DNA of 49,733 bases, from assembly GCA_002169695.1 (NCBI GenBank), contig NHJO01000009.1:11789-61521 (forward strand), read 5' to 3'. The translations under genes were made by a program, and so were the position numbers. The notes under the pieces were generated by a model that saw only the letters and a list, made by a program, of their open reading frames with translations, had not been told where the DNA came from and did no database searches. Positions within the stretch are counted from its first letter, which is position 1; the number at the start of each line of letters is the position of its first letter. Source of the DNA: a bacterium TMED217 (GTDB lineage Bacteria > Fidelibacterota > Marinisomatia > Marinisomatales > UBA1611). This document shows, in pieces, positions 3,097 to 9,288 of this stretch.

Positions 3097-5261
3097 CTTT
3101 GAGAACACTTAATTCAACCCAGAAATCTGCAGTTCAAGCAATTGATGGACCTGTATTGATTTTTGCTGGAGCTGGTAGTGGTAAGACAAGGGTGCTTACA
3201 CATAAATTATTTTATTTAGTAAATGAAGGATTATTTAAGCCTGAAGAAATTTTAGCTGTCACTTTCACAAATAAGGCTGCAAAGGAAATGAAAGACAGGG
3301 TTATGAAGTTACTGAAAACCAAAGAGCTTCCCCTATCAATCGGAACCTTTCATTCCATATGTGCGAGAATTCTTAGAGAAGATATTAAAGTTCTCGGCTT
3401 TAGTAATAATTTTGCTATTTATGATGTAAAGGATCAACTTGATCTAATTAAAGTATTATTTGAGGGAAATAAAATATCAAAAACGTTAATTACTCCTAAT
3501 CAACTTAGAAATCAAATTAGTTTATATAAAAATAAAATGATTGATTCTAAAACGGTAGAGAGAAGAGCGAGAACAATACTTGAAAAGACAGTAGCTGATA
3601 TTTTTTCACAATATCAAAAATCTCTTAAACTTAATGATGCATTAGACTTTGATGATTTATTAACATTCCCTCTTCAAATTTTTGATAAGAAGCCCACGGT
3701 TTTAAAAAAATACCAAAAAAGATGGAAATATATCTTAGTTGATGAATACCAAGATACTAACCGCGCACAATTTCAATTTTTGACAAATTTAGCTAAAGAA
3801 CATGAGAATATTTGCGTAGTTGGTGATGATGATCAATCAATATATGGTTGGCGCGGTGCAGAAGTATCAAACATTCTTGATTTTGAGAAAACTTTTTCTA
3901 GTTGTAGAGTTTTTACTTTAGAAAAAAATTACCGTTCAACTCAAGAAATTTTAAATGCAGCAACTTCTGTTGTGATGAATAATGATAAAAGAGCTAACAA
4001 AAACCTTATAGCTGCTAATGGCTCAGGCGATATGCTAGGCTTAATAGAAACAAACGATGAGCAGGAAGAAGCAAGTGCAATTATTTCATCAATTGAAAAA
4101 GAAATAAAATTAAACAAAAGAACATTTAATAAGTTTTCTGTTTTATATAGAACGAATGCTCAATCTAGGGCTCTTGAAGAAAGTTTTATTAGGCAAGGTA
4201 TACCCTATAATATTGTTGGAAGCGTTCGCTTTTATGAAAGAAAAGAGGTGAAAAATGTATTAGCCTATTTAAGGCTGGTGGTAAATCTGAAAGATACAAT
4301 TTCATTAAGAAGAATAATAAACTTTCCAGCAAGAGGTATAGGTGCAAAAACAATTGATAAATGTGTTCAACAATCAGAAAAAGACAAAATCGAATTTATA
4401 GAAGTTTTAAAAAACCCTAATAAAATGGACATTAGAGGTAAACAGGCTGACGCGCTATTTAAATTTTATAATATTATAATGAAATATAATGACCTTATAA
4501 ATAAATTAAGCGCAAGTGAATTAGTTAGAAGCTTAGTTGAAGAAATAGGTATCTTAACCTTTTTCAAGACATCAAAAGACCTTGATTCTAAAGATCGATA
4601 TGATAATATTGCAGAATTATTAACAAGTATAGAAGAATTTTCCATTAGACAACCAGAAGCAAGTCTAAGTAGCTTTCTTGAAGATGTTTCATTGCAAACA
4701 GATATCGATCATTGGAATGACTCAGATAATAGGGTAACGATGATGACTGTACACTCATCAAAAGGTTTAGAGTTTCCTGTAGTGTTTGTAGCGGGTATGG
4801 ATGAAGGTCTTTTCCCACTTTATAATTCTTTAGATGACAAAAAGGAATTAGAGGAAGAGAGAAGGCTTTTTTATGTAGCATTAACTAGAGCAGAAGAGCG
4901 TGTTTATTTGTTATATGCCACAAATAGAAGGAGGATGGGTGCTGAAACGGTAAATGGTTTACCGAGCCGATTTATTAATGAAATACCTGAAGAATCTTTA
5001 GAAAGAATTAGTTTTAGCTCTGCTGTTACAAGAAAGTTTGTAATTAGTAAACGTAGAAAAGATGGTTCAACTCAAATGGTTAGGACTGTTACAGATTTTG
5101 ATGATTTTCAAGTTGGTGATAATGTTGAACATTCAATTTTTGGAGCCGGTAAGATAATGGCTTTGAGCGGTACAGGAGAAAACCAAAGAGTGGGTGTTGT
5201 TTTTAATGATGGGACTAGAAAAAAATTAATTGTGAAATTCGCGAATTTGAAAAAAATATAA
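3093..5261 (+). CDS. pcrA: UvrD/PcrA-type superfamily 1 DNA helicase
   Basis: 722 residues, the usual size for PcrA/UvrD, a 3'-5' helicase of nucleotide excision repair, mismatch repair and RecA-filament removal. Visible motifs: Q motif LNSTQKSAV; Walker A GAGSGKT (about 26-32); motif Ia VTFTNKAAKEM; DExx box VDEYQD (D217, E218); motif III GDDDQSIYGWRGA; motif IV RNYRS-like KNYRST; motif V TVHSSKGLEF; motif VI FYVALTRAEE. The C-terminus (about 660-722) has DFDDFQVGDNVEHSIFGAGK, the Tudor-like RNA-polymerase-interacting tail of PcrA, which favours pcrA over rep. It overlaps mltG by four bases. Confidence 0.95.
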   Translation: MTLRTLNSTQKSAVQAIDGPVLIFAGAGSGKTRVLTHKLFYLVNEGLFKPEEILAVTFTNKAAKEMKDRVMKLLKTKELPLSIGTFHSICARILREDIKVLGFSNNFAIYDVKDQLDLIKVLFEGNKISKTLITPNQLRNQISLYKNKMIDSKTVERRARTILEKTVADIFSQYQKSLKLNDALDFDDLLTFPLQIFDKKPTVLKKYQKRWKYILVDEYQDTNRAQFQFLTNLAKEHENICVVGDDDQSIYGWRGAEVSNILDFEKTFSSCRVFTLEKNYRSTQEILNAATSVVMNNDKRANKNLIAANGSGDMLGLIETNDEQEEASAIISSIEKEIKLNKRTFNKFSVLYRTNAQSRALEESFIRQGIPYNIVGSVRFYERKEVKNVLAYLRLVVNLKDTISLRRIINFPARGIGAKTIDKCVQQSEKDKIEFIEVLKNPNKMDIRGKQADALFKFYNIIMKYNDLINKLSASELVRSLVEEIGILTFFKTSKDLDSKDRYDNIAELLTSIEEFSIRQPEASLSSFLEDVSLQTDIDHWNDSDNRVTMMTVHSSKGLEFPVVFVAGMDEGLFPLYNSLDDKKELEEERRLFYVALTRAEERVYLLYATNRRRMGAETVNGLPSRFINEIPEESLERISFSSAVTRKFVISKRRKDGSTQMVRTVTDFDDFQVGDNVEHSIFGAGKIMALSGTGENQRVGVVFNDGTRKKLIVKFANLKKI

Positions 5262-5324
5262 TAGTAATCTGTAATAAACGATTTTTATGGTTATTTTCAT
5301 CATTAACAACCTTTAATTAATTAT

Positions 5325-5747
5325 ATGAATCATATTGATATATTAAAAAATGTTCTTAGCAATGAAGGCCTAAGGTATACACAACAAAGACAAATAATTT
5401 GGGATGAAATAAGAACCTCATCTGAGCATAGAGATGCCGAAAAAATATATAGTCAAATAAAAATTAAAAATAAAATAAAAGTTTCAAGAGCTACTGTATA
5501 TAGAACGATTGATGTATTGGTAAAAAATGATTTGGTTAGGAAAGTGGAACTTGGCGATGGGCGGGCTTTGTATGAGCACAAATATAATGAAGAACATCAC
5601 GATCATATGATTTGTGTAGAAACTGGTAAAATTACAGAGTTCTATAATGAAAAACTTGAAGACCTACAGGAAGAAATTGTAAAAAAACATGGATATGAAC
5701 TTGTTAGGCATGTGCATCAGCTATTTGTAAAACCGATTAAAAAGTAA
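5325..5747 (+). CDS. fur: Fur-family metal-responsive transcription regulator
   Basis: 140 residues, the standard size. An N-terminal winged helix (about 10-85) contains SRATVYRTIDVLVKNDLV and is followed by the metal-binding dimerisation domain with HHDH (91-94) and a late HVHQLF. Fur proteins repress iron-uptake or related genes when metal is bound. Here the usual first CxxC zinc pair reads C97-V-E-T100, and there is no second CxxC near the C-terminus, so the structural zinc site is lost, as in some other Fur lineages. Whether it senses iron, zinc, manganese or peroxide cannot be told. It stands alone, 63 bases after the helicase, and ends against a convergent gene. Confidence 0.9.
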   Translation: MNHIDILKNVLSNEGLRYTQQRQIIWDEIRTSSEHRDAEKIYSQIKIKNKIKVSRATVYRTIDVLVKNDLVRKVELGDGRALYEHKYNEEHHDHMICVETGKITEFYNEKLEDLQEEIVKKHGYELVRHVHQLFVKPIKK

Positions 5748-5757
5748 TTGGTTCTTT

Positions 5758-6246
5758 TTAAATATTTTTTTTCATTTTTATATATCTAGTACGCTTGTTA
5801 TTTATTTCCTGATAGCCCATTGAACAGTATAGTTCTTTAGCTATCTGATTTTTTTTCACTACATTGATTTTTATATTTTTAATATTATTATCATTCTTGA
5901 GAATTTTCTCTGCATATAAGATTAATTTTTTTGCATACCCCTTTCTTAATTGATTTTGATTGATAATTAGATGAAATAAATGTGCTGAATTTTTATCTTC
6001 CTCATATTTAATACTTAGATGCCCAACAATCCAGTTGTCTATTTTTATTATTATTGTTTCAATATTAATTTCTTTGTATGATAATGAAATCCATTTTTTT
6101 ATATTAAAGGGATAAGTCATTCTAGGGTCGGTAAAATGAAGAATTTTGGGGTCCGATAGCCAATCAGATAGACAAGCATTTAGAATTCTAATATCTTCTT
6201 TTTTATAATAGGTTATTTTTGATATAAATACTTTTGATTCTTTCAT
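5758..6246 (-). CDS. GNAT-family N-acetyltransferase
   Basis: 162 residues with GNAT fold features. The acetyl-CoA pyrophosphate loop is NQNQLRKGYAKKLILYAEKI (Q-x-x-K-G-x-A form, about 97-115), and the C-terminal motif B is KKNQIAKELYCSMGYQEI (about 131-148), as in RimJ/RimL-type and sugar or amino-acid acetyltransferases. The strand before the loop (AHLFHLIINQNQ) is in place. The substrate is unknown. It is convergent with the fur gene (10-base gap, T-rich). The protein is Lys- and Ile-rich, as expected in this AT-rich genome. Confidence 0.8.
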   Translation of the reverse strand: MKESKVFISKITYYKKEDIRILNACLSDWLSDPKILHFTDPRMTYPFNIKKWISLSYKEINIETIIIKIDNWIVGHLSIKYEEDKNSAHLFHLIINQNQLRKGYAKKLILYAEKILKNDNNIKNIKINVVKKNQIAKELYCSMGYQEINNKRTRYIKMKKNI

Positions 6247-6319
6247 TTTTCTTATAACATTAATTATAGTTTCTTTCTTTTTTAATGTTATTATTTAATT
6301 ATAGATATATTTTACCTAT

Positions 6320-7909
6320 ATGATAAGAATTTTAATATTTCTTTTAATAAGTATAGCTGCGGCTCAAAATAAATTAATTATGCCTTATGATTTTTCTAAA
6401 CATCAAGGCTATGTAATTAATAATGGTAATATAGTTTGGAATAAAGATTGGAAGTCAGGAAATTTTTTCTTTGATGGAACTTTTGCAAACTTCCCTTCTA
6501 CTTTTGGTCCCTATATTGAATCTAATTATTATCAAAATATAGATACTACATTTTCTGATTCAAATTACACTTCATCATATTTTGATTATGTACAAGGAGA
6601 TTATTATTTAGATAATCTAGATATTGGGATAAAATATTTAAATGAAAATAAATTGACAATTTTACATGCTTTTAAAAAAAGGTATGCTGGTGCATATAAT
6701 CAATATGCAATGATATCTGGACCACCAAGTCCGATTCATTATACATATCTAGGTAAGTATAGTATAAAAGGTGATAAAGATTTATTAGATCTATCTATTG
6801 GTAATTTTAATTCAGATTTTGGTCTTTTAGATAGTTTAGGTACTTCTTTTGTTGACTCCAGAATAACTTCATCTAATATTTCATATAAGCGTGGATATGA
6901 TAGTCTATATTTTACTATTAGCGCGCATAATTTTTTGCAACGTCATGATAGTCAACATTCACAATTTGATATAAATGGTGTAAGATATTTGACAAGAACT
7001 AAAGTTGAAGGTTCAATTGTTTTTATGAAGAAACATAATTATGATTTATTTATTAGCGCAGATATTAATAAAAGGTCGTTACGTTCAGATCTATTTAAGT
7101 CAATTGGATGGAATTCAGTAAAGGTCGGATTTAATCATAAGAATTATTCGTTTAATCTTGGAAGGAGTAATATAGATAATAATAAAAATTTGATTGTTGA
7201 TGGAAAAATATTTTATTCAAAAGATCAATTCATGATTGGTTCAAGATTTAGTCATTATTACAAACCATTACATATTAGTCTATTGGATTCTAAATCTAAT
7301 GAGCAAAGAAATGAGTTCATATTTAATGGCGCACGGTCAATAAATAGAATAAAATTTGGTACTGAAATATTTTTTAATACAGTTATAAGAGATATAGATT
7401 TACAATCAAATAATCAGTTATATCCTGAAAAGGCATCAAATATATGGATATATGGATATATAGAGTATAAGGCTTTAGATAATCTATCACTAGAGCTTGG
7501 TTATAATAAGATAAACTCCAATGATTATATAACCGATGGAATTGATCAAAGGTTAAATTTTAAATTAAATAATCATTTTAAATTATTTTCAAATGCTATG
7601 ACTGTCCTTACATCATTTTCAGTTAGTGGCTTATTAGGTAGGGATAATGATTATGTTTTACATCCGATTGATCAATACCCTATAAAAATAGATTCAGATT
7701 ATTCTATGGATGATACTTGGTTAATGAATCTTTCTTTCTTATTTAGGATAAAAAGTCTAGACATAAAATATGAGATGAGCAATTTAACAAATATTATTTA
7801 TGATTATTTAGGTAATAACGATCAGGATAATAGCATACAGTTTAATCCTTATTTTCCAAGGATGCGAAGATTGGCTTCGTTATCAATTAAATGGGATTTC
7901 TTGGATTAA
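6320..7909 (+). CDS. putative outer-membrane beta-barrel protein
   Basis: 529 residues. A short signal peptide (MIRILIFLLISIAAA, cut near AQN) precedes a protein made of alternating aromatic/hydrophobic and polar strands with turn-rich D/N loops throughout, the pattern of a large outer-membrane barrel. The C-terminus, FNPYFPRMRRLASLSIKWDF, resembles the final strands of TonB-dependent receptors (proline/arginine turn, then a strand ending in an aromatic), but there is no plug domain or TonB box at the N-terminus. It could be a porin-like barrel or a receptor-derived plugless barrel. It converges on the B12-controlled lipoprotein, with the two stop codons overlapping at 7906-7909. The substrate is unknown. 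Confidence 0.65.
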   Translation: MIRILIFLLISIAAAQNKLIMPYDFSKHQGYVINNGNIVWNKDWKSGNFFFDGTFANFPSTFGPYIESNYYQNIDTTFSDSNYTSSYFDYVQGDYYLDNLDIGIKYLNENKLTILHAFKKRYAGAYNQYAMISGPPSPIHYTYLGKYSIKGDKDLLDLSIGNFNSDFGLLDSLGTSFVDSRITSSNISYKRGYDSLYFTISAHNFLQRHDSQHSQFDINGVRYLTRTKVEGSIVFMKKHNYDLFISADINKRSLRSDLFKSIGWNSVKVGFNHKNYSFNLGRSNIDNNKNLIVDGKIFYSKDQFMIGSRFSHYYKPLHISLLDSKSNEQRNEFIFNGARSINRIKFGTEIFFNTVIRDIDLQSNNQLYPEKASNIWIYGYIEYKALDNLSLELGYNKINSNDYITDGIDQRLNFKLNNHFKLFSNAMTVLTSFSVSGLLGRDNDYVLHPIDQYPIKIDSDYSMDDTWLMNLSFLFRIKSLDIKYEMSNLTNIIYDYLGNNDQDNSIQFNPYFPRMRRLASLSIKWDFLD

Positions 7910-9009
7910 TTAGCAGATTTCCAAATAGCGTAATCGCCTGGTGCTGCACCAACCTCAAATAATGTAAAACTATCACTTTCTTTATTTTGGATATAAACTG
8001 TATCAGGAGATTGATAATCATTCGTAACGCCCAATAGTATCTGGTTATCTATCGCATCAGAAGAATATAAGTTTGGATTATAGTAGGAGTCTTTGCTTGA
8101 GTATTCTCCTATTCTTGAAGCTAAATTAATACTTAAATCATTATGATCAATTGGTGCGATACCACCTAGGCTTGTTCTATATAATTGATCATTATAAACC
8201 ATTACATTCCCACCGCAGACTATTCCTTCGCCATATTCTTTTGAGGTGATATTGTTTGTCAGGAGATTGATTTGCGTCATCCCAAAATATGTTTGATACC
8301 AATTATCACTGTAATATGTCCGTGATACCCATAAACTATTATCATGAATAACAAGTTGTTGAGGTCCTTTGCCGACTTCATATATCTCAACAATCTCATT
8401 TATATTCGGGTCTATTTTAATAACATTAGACCCATTACCTTGGTCATACAATTCTATGTGAGGTACGCTTGCATATAAAAAAGTGCCATCGCTTATTATA
8501 TCTTCAGGCAAGCCATCAACAGATATTTGTTCTGTAATTGCATAAGTAGTAAGGTTAAGAATTTTTATGTCTTTAGAGTTCCAGTTTGTGAAATAGAGGT
8601 TTTTATTAAAAATACTCATCTCGCGTGGACTAGAGTTCTGCGTTGAAACTGTAATCCCTGGTAGGGTAAGTCCAGATTCTGAAATAGAATATCTTTTAAT
8701 TTCATTGCTGCCATTAACAATGACAAAGAGATGGTTTTCATGAACTAAAATAGATTGAACTACATCGCCGATATCTAATACTTCTTGAATTTTTTGGTCA
8801 TTATTAAAAACAGATATAGATCCATTTCCTTGACCAAAGTTTCCTTCACTGGCGACAAACAAATAGTCTGTTTCGTTATCCTCTATTGATTTATTTTTTT
8901 CATTTTCACAGCCAAATGAAATAAAAAGAGCAATAAATGAAATACTAAATAGTTTTAAAGAGATTTTTGTTGTAGTGATTTTAGAAAACAAGTTATTTAA
9001 ATGATTCAT
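7906..9009 (-). CDS. cobalamin-riboswitch-controlled beta-propeller lipoprotein (BtuG-like)
   Basis: 367 residues when started at the ATG at 9009. A longer frame to 9108 runs through the riboswitch, so its first 33 codons are not protein. The N-terminus, FSISFIALFISFGC, is a lipoprotein signal with Cys34, followed by acidic residues (ENE), a possible surface-export cue. The mature part has repeated YncE-like propeller blades: DYLFVASEGNFGQGNGSISV, later LTLPGITVSTQNSSPREM, VDGLPEDIISDGTFLY and VGKGPQQLVIHDNSLWV. The opening matches the DUF5074/YncE-type surface lipoproteins of Bacteroidetes. Known family: BtuG of Bacteroides is a surface propeller that binds B12 very tightly and hands it to BtuB. 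The riboswitch supports a corrinoid role here; direct binding is inference. No btuB lies nearby. Confidence 0.75.
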   Translation of the reverse strand: MNHLNNLFSKITTTKISLKLFSISFIALFISFGCENEKNKSIEDNETDYLFVASEGNFGQGNGSISVFNNDQKIQEVLDIGDVVQSILVHENHLFVIVNGSNEIKRYSISESGLTLPGITVSTQNSSPREMSIFNKNLYFTNWNSKDIKILNLTTYAITEQISVDGLPEDIISDGTFLYASVPHIELYDQGNGSNVIKIDPNINEIVEIYEVGKGPQQLVIHDNSLWVSRTYYSDNWYQTYFGMTQINLLTNNITSKEYGEGIVCGGNVMVYNDQLYRTSLGGIAPIDHNDLSINLASRIGEYSSKDSYYNPNLYSSDAIDNQILLGVTNDYQSPDTVYIQNKESDSFTLFEVGAAPGDYAIWKSAN

Positions 9010-9043
9010 TCCTTTTCTCCCGAAAGTAGTTATTAAGTTGATT

Positions 9044-9191
9044 CTTTTTAATAAGGTTTCCTGACTCATGTAGTGACAACTAAGTTTACCTTCTCCTTGA
9101 AAAAACAAAGATGGCTAATAAAAACTTGTATTCTACAAATACAGTAGCGGGGACTGTGTTTGATTCTAACAAACTTCCCTTTTTTAAAAAG
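9044..9191 (-). promoter_or_regulatory. cobalamin (B12) riboswitch
   Basis: Read on the minus strand, the leader carries the hallmarks of the cobalamin riboswitch: GGGAAGTTTGTTAGAATC at the 5' side, the conserved core CAGTCCCCGCTACTGTA (about 9139-9155), and the 3' B12-box region TGTCACTACATGAGTCAGG (about 9058-9076) followed by AAACC. A closing P1 stem pairs CTTTTTAA (9191-9184) with TTAAAAAG (9051-9044). It ends 34 bases before the ATG at 9009 of the propeller lipoprotein. The gap has GGGAGAAAAGGA just before the ATG and no clear terminator, so translational control is more likely than attenuation. B12 should lower expression. Confidence 0.9.
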
Positions 9192-9288
9192 AAATATTAT
9201 CTACACAGAAATTAAATAATAAATAATTATAAATAAAATATTGCAAATCATAAATTATTTTCTTAGGTAGTTTTTTGTGAAGTGTTAA

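Follow-up and report, generated by a model that had tools for sequence, protein, structure and literature searches.

The window, the whole 49,733-nucleotide stretch of DNA that was analysed, carries a locus that is probably a one-gene, riboswitch-controlled B12-acquisition unit, in which a lipid-anchored BtuG would capture corrinoids and hand them over to a transporter other than btuB. The locus consists of a cobalamin riboswitch and a single gene encoding a BtuG-type lipoprotein, referred to here as solo BtuG. Close orthologs of this lipoprotein come from Candidatus Marinimicrobia / Neomarinimicrobiota (SAR406), a marine phylum, in agreement with an earlier sequence-only reading that had placed the DNA in a marine FCB bacterium. 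Among the Neomarinimicrobiota sampled, solo BtuG is never found together with btuB. The features of the locus and of its borders are as follows.

9037-9216, minus strand: cobalamin riboswitch aptamer (RF00174), identified with cmscan
9011-9036, minus strand: short leader that links the aptamer to the start codon and contains the purine-rich ribosome-binding site GGAGAAAAGG, from the sequence
7906-9009, minus strand: solo BtuG-type lipoprotein of 367 aa, a predicted seven-bladed propeller, from the open reading frame, the profile and the model
8908-9009, minus strand: signal peptide with lipobox, from the sequence; the predicted lipidation site is Cys34 (8910-8908), followed by acidic residues
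9289-10047, plus strand: divergent NlpC/P60 protein, conserved border of the slot on the opposite side, from domain match and synteny
6320-7909, plus strand: 529-aa outer-membrane protein, convergent neighbour and conserved border of the slot, outside riboswitch control, from synteny and model

The sequence-only reading had proposed a cobalamin riboswitch in front of the lipoprotein gene and named 9030-9210 as the interval to search. The riboswitch was recovered by cmscan at 9216-9037 of the minus strand with 72.1 bits (E 6.2e-16; the gathering score of RF00174 is 31.5 bits), as a full-length match covering model positions 1-189, its 5' end lying 25 nt upstream of 9191, the end coordinate given in that reading for the whole locus. 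It is the only cobalamin riboswitch in the window's own genome assembly (1.1 Mb, 64% complete). As a separate observation, a single genome among 101 related ones, G055, has two cobalamin riboswitches (C128:1038-1161 and C72:18594-18817), each ahead of its own btuB. The best start of the lipoprotein frame is the ATG at 9009, 27 nt from the aptamer and with GGAGAAAAGG just 5' of it. Because this leader lacks a terminator-like hairpin (0 terminator-like sites), control is likely exerted at translation start. Folding of the leader RNA with ViennaRNA was uninformative (z -0.09), and promoter-like sites are no commoner than expected by chance. The stop of solo btuG at 7906 overlaps the 3' end of the convergent gene by 4 bp, and the riboswitch therefore serves a single gene. 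Riboswitches of the cobalamin class shut down the downstream gene when the ligand is bound at high cobalamin.

The kinship of the lipoprotein with BtuG is supported at the level of both sequence and predicted fold. Searched against the PDB, the single protein of the window reaches BtuG chains with E 9e-11; with a profile built from 35 clade orthologs, the E-value for the solved BtuG chains falls to 3e-20. The YncE/DUF5074-type propeller of the earlier reading stands as regards BtuG, by profile, while the match to the Pfam family is weak, the single sequence scoring 14.1 bits against DUF5074, under the cut-off of 27.2. The AlphaFold2 model of the lipoprotein (pLDDT 87, pTM 0.83) was compared with known structures using Foldseek. 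Bacteroides BtuG chains take the first 16 places among the PDB matches, led by BtuG3 with cyanocobalamin (E 6e-19, TM 0.72/0.79); the best non-BtuG match has E 2e-11. Ten residues, among them E55, G56, G81, D82, N99, P128, R129, and E169, do not differ between any of the aligned sequences, whether solo, btuB-linked, or BtuG2/3 of B. theta. The Cys34 column is invariant across the 35 orthologs, and Cys34 is followed by the acidic stretch CENEKNKSIEDNE, as had been noted before. This stretch indicates that the protein is probably located on the cell surface. Solo BtuG thus shares with BtuG the predicted seven-bladed fold, the sequence kinship, and the nature of a lipoprotein with an acidic signal, but not the place next to btuB as lid of BtuB, no btuB having been detected in the operon or the genome. 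Corrinoid binding by solo BtuG would be in keeping with this kinship.

Across the order, the locus corresponds to one syntenic slot with one riboswitch, behind which stands btuB, btuB-btuG, or solo btuG. The slot is bordered by an NlpC/P60, HNH, and TrpS block on one side and, on the other, by the convergent gene of the 529-aa barrel, beyond which lie GNAT, Fur, and UvrD genes. In slot genomes, solo btuG lies directly behind the riboswitch on the same contig; in some other Neomarinimicrobiota it lies outside the slot, again with a cobalamin riboswitch in front. Since the solo clade replaces btuB or btuB-btuG behind the riboswitch, hand-over would have to be to an outer-membrane transporter other than a btuB ortholog. 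The 529-aa neighbour, which has no Pfam match and no PDB sequence match, is predicted to form a barrel of 22 strands, similar to TonB-dependent receptors (E. coli BtuB included) but lacking the plug domain. Its gene is the conserved convergent neighbour of the slot throughout the order, and because genomes with btuB have it too, this predicted barrel is at most a candidate for the partner transporter of solo BtuG.

None of the 151 phylum genomes has cbiC above cut-off, and on this account the corrin ring does not appear to be made in the phylum, which bears out the earlier suggestion of a likely B12 auxotroph. Full-length B12-dependent MetH (1182-1191 aa) is encoded in four solo-type genomes (G004, G051, G092, and G094), and judging from these relatives the window's own organism would need B12 as well. 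The search for B12-dependent enzymes that the sequence-only reading had advised was thus positive in solo-type relatives but gave no B12-binding-domain protein in the window's own genome, a missing match that counts against the B12-capture explanation and that, at 64% completeness, says little.

The solo clade differs from other BtuG proteins around the cavity for the upper ligand, which in BtuG2 is narrowed by Trp194, Trp272, and Tyr316 (PMC10404256). Two codons of the window are concerned.

8215-8217, minus strand: codon of Cys265, invariant in 35 of 35 solo-type sequences, at the alignment position of Trp272, a residue of the upper-ligand cavity in BtuG2
8065-8067, minus strand: codon of Tyr315, the counterpart of BtuG2 Tyr316 in the alignment, without variation in solo or btuB-linked BtuG

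At the alignment position of Trp272, 13 of 18 btuB-linked BtuG have Phe or Tyr, B. theta BtuG3 has Ala, and all 35 solo sequences have Cys. The equivalent of Trp194 is Trp in 18/18 btuB-linked BtuG, whereas it is lost and variable in the solo clade, and this loss counts against corrinoid capture. According to the hmmsearch profile alignment, the strand order of the AlphaFold2 model, and the spacing (44 residues between Trp272 and Tyr316, against 43 between Cys265 and Tyr315 in 22 of the 35 solo sequences), Cys265 probably sits at the Trp272 position of BtuG2; when blades 5-7 were aligned to BtuG2 by MAFFT, however, Trp272 fell in a gap, and neither the Trp272 nor the Tyr316 mapping was reproduced. 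Apart from the lipidated cysteine, Cys265 is the only cysteine of the window protein (P0001). Cobalt-thiolate capture by Cys265 is chemically reasonable because in BtuM a cysteine ligates cobalt and cyanide is removed (PMC6072759), and by analogy the invariant, unpaired Cys265 suggests a capture of this kind. More speculatively, this clade-specific cysteine may ligate cobalt from the upper face. If so, release would have to proceed by a different step from that of BtuG, for which the BtuB loop EL8 has been described.

Orthologs of solo BtuG with about 37-46% identity are found in marine Flavobacteriales and Cryomorphaceae. Directly 5' of the ortholog, four of them carry a SAM-II riboswitch (68-75 bits), located as follows.

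L161, 5973-6032: SAM-II riboswitch before the solo BtuG ortholog
L162, 3236-3295: the same
L164, 5879-5938: the same
L167, 5864-5923: the same

At L163, the ortholog is divergent from a split metH. Together, the SAM-II riboswitches and the split metH tie solo BtuG to B12-dependent methionine synthesis, and such a pairing of cobalamin control in one phylum with SAM control in the other would be expected of a protein that feeds B12 to this pathway. Several Flavobacteriales genomes with the ortholog also carry a BtuB-like receptor elsewhere, which matches the btuB model distantly and shows no riboswitch in the stretch examined. An arrangement of a different kind was seen at L166, where a cobalamin riboswitch (5104-5230) is followed by the gene of a 122-aa cupredoxin-like lipoprotein (5267-5635) and then by a solo BtuG (5698-6924) that is cysteine-rich and extended at its N-terminus.

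The same features could signal a change of ligand, the solo protein binding, for instance, a nutrient of the methionine pathway as a riboswitch-controlled alternative to the use of B12. The loss of the Trp194 equivalent and the clade-specific Cys265 are compatible with this, as are SAM-II control in Flavobacteriales and the lack of btuB in solo-type Neomarinimicrobiota. However, the best structural matches are BtuG-corrinoid complexes, the face residues common to BtuG2/3 are kept, and solo btuG occupies the btuB slot behind a single riboswitch in a setting where MetH is kept and cbiC is missing. With a new ligand, no component of B12 entry would be under riboswitch control, and we consider this explanation unlikely.

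A second alternative accepts B12 as the ligand but turns the lipoprotein towards the periplasm, where it would act as a BtuF-like carrier of B12, the vitamin entering through a porin of the outer membrane that is either non-specific or unrelated. In its favour are an operon without outer-membrane partner and the absence of FecCD (BtuC family) from every one of the order's 42 high-quality genomes, in which B12-dependent enzymes are present. That absence led us to reject BtuCD as inner-membrane partner; because of it, the inner-membrane route is unusual anyway. On the other hand, the acidic stretch behind the lipid cysteine is similar to the signal described for surface export of BtuG (PMC6143338), and some BtuG of the sister clade have a type IX secretion tail, implying secretion to the surface. 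A periplasmic carrier appears somewhat less probable still than a changed ligand.

The preferred reading is surface capture by a BtuG that has no BtuB. The name btuB is used here for the TonB-dependent receptor that is linked to the riboswitch and that, among NCBIfam models, best matches TIGR01779, the TonB-B12 receptor model; for btuB of related genomes (c11), which stands behind a cobalamin riboswitch, the matches have E 1.5e-27 and 3e-20, under the curated cut-off. Searches with the receptor model found no btuB in the window or in the rest of its 64%-complete genome. Among the 101 related genomes, a btuB ortholog was found at E <= 1e-130 in 70 of the 83 non-solo genomes and in none of the 18 solo-type genomes, in which the best match (3e-47) came from other receptors. 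In a sample of the phylum (151 genomes, at least 85% complete except the window's own, G000), btuB was present at E <= 1e-50 in 116 of 125 genomes without solo BtuG and in 0 of 26 with it; it was also absent from twelve further solo-type Neomarinimicrobiota genomes. The earlier statement that no btuB lies nearby was therefore too modest, as btuB is absent wherever the solo version occurs in the phylum.

Could btuB be present but missed, through incomplete genomes or a diverged receptor? Most genomes are MAGs or single-cell assemblies, and the BtuB-like receptors of Flavobacteriales are matched only distantly by the btuB model. Such an artefact is nevertheless very unlikely given the contrast of 0/26 with 116/125 at the completeness of these genomes; moreover, the slot gene lies directly behind the riboswitch on the same contig, and the model still detects the distant flavobacterial receptors. 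The nearest btuB-model matches in G004 and G009, considered as candidates, follow a TetR gene, with an HmuY-like gene next in G004, and were set aside as probable haem receptors. A row of TetR, TonB-dependent receptor, and HmuY-like genes is also seen at L212:434-3107 on the plus strand, probably a haem uptake locus, and receptors of this type are among the nearest btuB-model matches in solo-type genomes. A very divergent BtuB substitute is expected in solo-type genomes. Clustering of 102 receptor sequences from ten genomes, which cover part of their receptors, gave no TonB-dependent receptor family present in all solo-type genomes and absent from btuB genomes among these incomplete lists.

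In the gene tree, one branch separates solo from btuB-linked BtuG with an SH-aLRT of 100, and identity between solo and btuB-linked proteins ('type B', for example in G058 and G014) is 27-36%. The tree of flanking genes, by contrast, requires six changes for the solo state, at least five of them on well-supported branches: in the window's genus, G002 with btuB-btuG is surrounded by solo members, and G100, with solo btuG, stands beside btuB-btuG members of another genus. One clade of solo proteins together with at least five changes of state is most simply read as repeated entry of solo BtuG into the slot, displacing btuB or btuBG. The independent pairs number five, too few for a claim of significance on that count alone, and the sequence identities of the riboswitches do not clearly distinguish a riboswitch that stayed in place from one that travelled with the gene. 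Some btuB-linked BtuG lack a lipobox and have a C-terminal domain for type IX secretion, which offers a different way to the surface; besides the three listed below, G010, G026, and G054 have the same type of tail by alignment or length.

L071, 4591-5883, minus strand: BtuG with type IX secretion tail
L075, 2954-4252, minus strand: the same
L072, 10251-11534, plus strand: the same

That solo btuG is a mere vestige of a btuB-btuG operon in a lineage losing B12 uptake, as the missing btuB and the small size of some phylum genomes might suggest, is scarcely credible when the solo protein belongs to a different clade from the BtuG of the operon, recurs at the slot and elsewhere with its own riboswitch, and has intact frames and invariant residues in lineages that retain MetH.

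The preferred reading, a riboswitch-controlled B12-acquisition unit, can be laid out as a sequence of steps. At high cobalamin the riboswitch would bind its ligand and switch off translation of solo btuG; at low cobalamin the gene would be on and the protein made. The product would be exported and lipid-anchored, probably at the surface, where it would capture corrinoids from seawater. The cargo would then be passed to an outer-membrane transporter that is neither a btuB ortholog nor encoded in the operon. Kinship, the acidic stretch, and the gene exchange at the slot favour corrinoid binding, surface position, and hand-over, respectively, and these steps are proposed on that footing. A bolder version combines cobalt-thiolate capture by an invariant surface cysteine, delivery to another outer-membrane channel, and an inter-lineage substitute for btuB wired to either cobalamin or SAM; such a BtuB-independent system is conceivable, though we hold it to be doubtful as a whole.

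BtuG has been described as exclusive to Bacteroidetes, and of 112 BtuG homologs in gut genomes, 106 are encoded within btuB operons (PMC6143338). Our search of the open-access literature found no BtuG described without BtuB and no DUF5074 protein in this role. The locus thus points to a separate BtuG clade without BtuB, outside Bacteroidetes, in an abundant and uncultured ocean phylum, and amounts to a natural gene-replacement experiment, in which something besides btuB must carry B12 across the outer membrane. It gives a handle on the competition of B12-auxotrophic marine bacteria for a scarce vitamin, and the invariant cysteine allows a specific chemical mechanism to be put to the test. One protein family under two riboswitches, cobalamin and SAM, would be an unusual regulatory convergence.

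Several known systems can be compared with solo BtuG. E. coli BtuB shares with it the control by a cobalamin riboswitch and the same role in the pathway slot, but is a TonB-dependent barrel that moves B12 through the membrane, whereas solo BtuG is a soluble-type propeller and cannot be a pore. BtuH (DUF4465) of Bacteroides likewise serves surface capture of B12 and forms no stable association with BtuB (PMC10404256); its fold is different, however, and it accompanies a complete BtuBG system. In BtuM, a small inner-membrane B12 transporter, an invariant cysteine has been shown to be an axial ligand of cobalt (PMC6072759), a role that is proposed for solo BtuG; fold and membrane are unrelated, and the cysteine lies on the lower (alpha) face in BtuM as against the proposed upper (beta) face. 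Type B BtuG of the same phylum is a homologous propeller from the same riboswitch slot, but forms a separate clade and stands behind btuB, and in some members a type IX secretion tail takes the place of the lipobox. A further parallel is with BtuG1-3 of Bacteroides thetaiotaomicron (PDB 3dsm, 8bai, 8okv, 8bmx, 8p97), which are also seven-bladed propeller lipoproteins with an acidic stretch, under cobalamin-riboswitch control, and which share E55, D82, N99, R129, and E169. At about 20-22% identity to them, the solo clade has no Trp194 equivalent and has Cys at the Trp272-aligned position, and whereas B. theta BtuG is encoded with btuB and caps BtuB as a lid, the solo clade is encoded alone.
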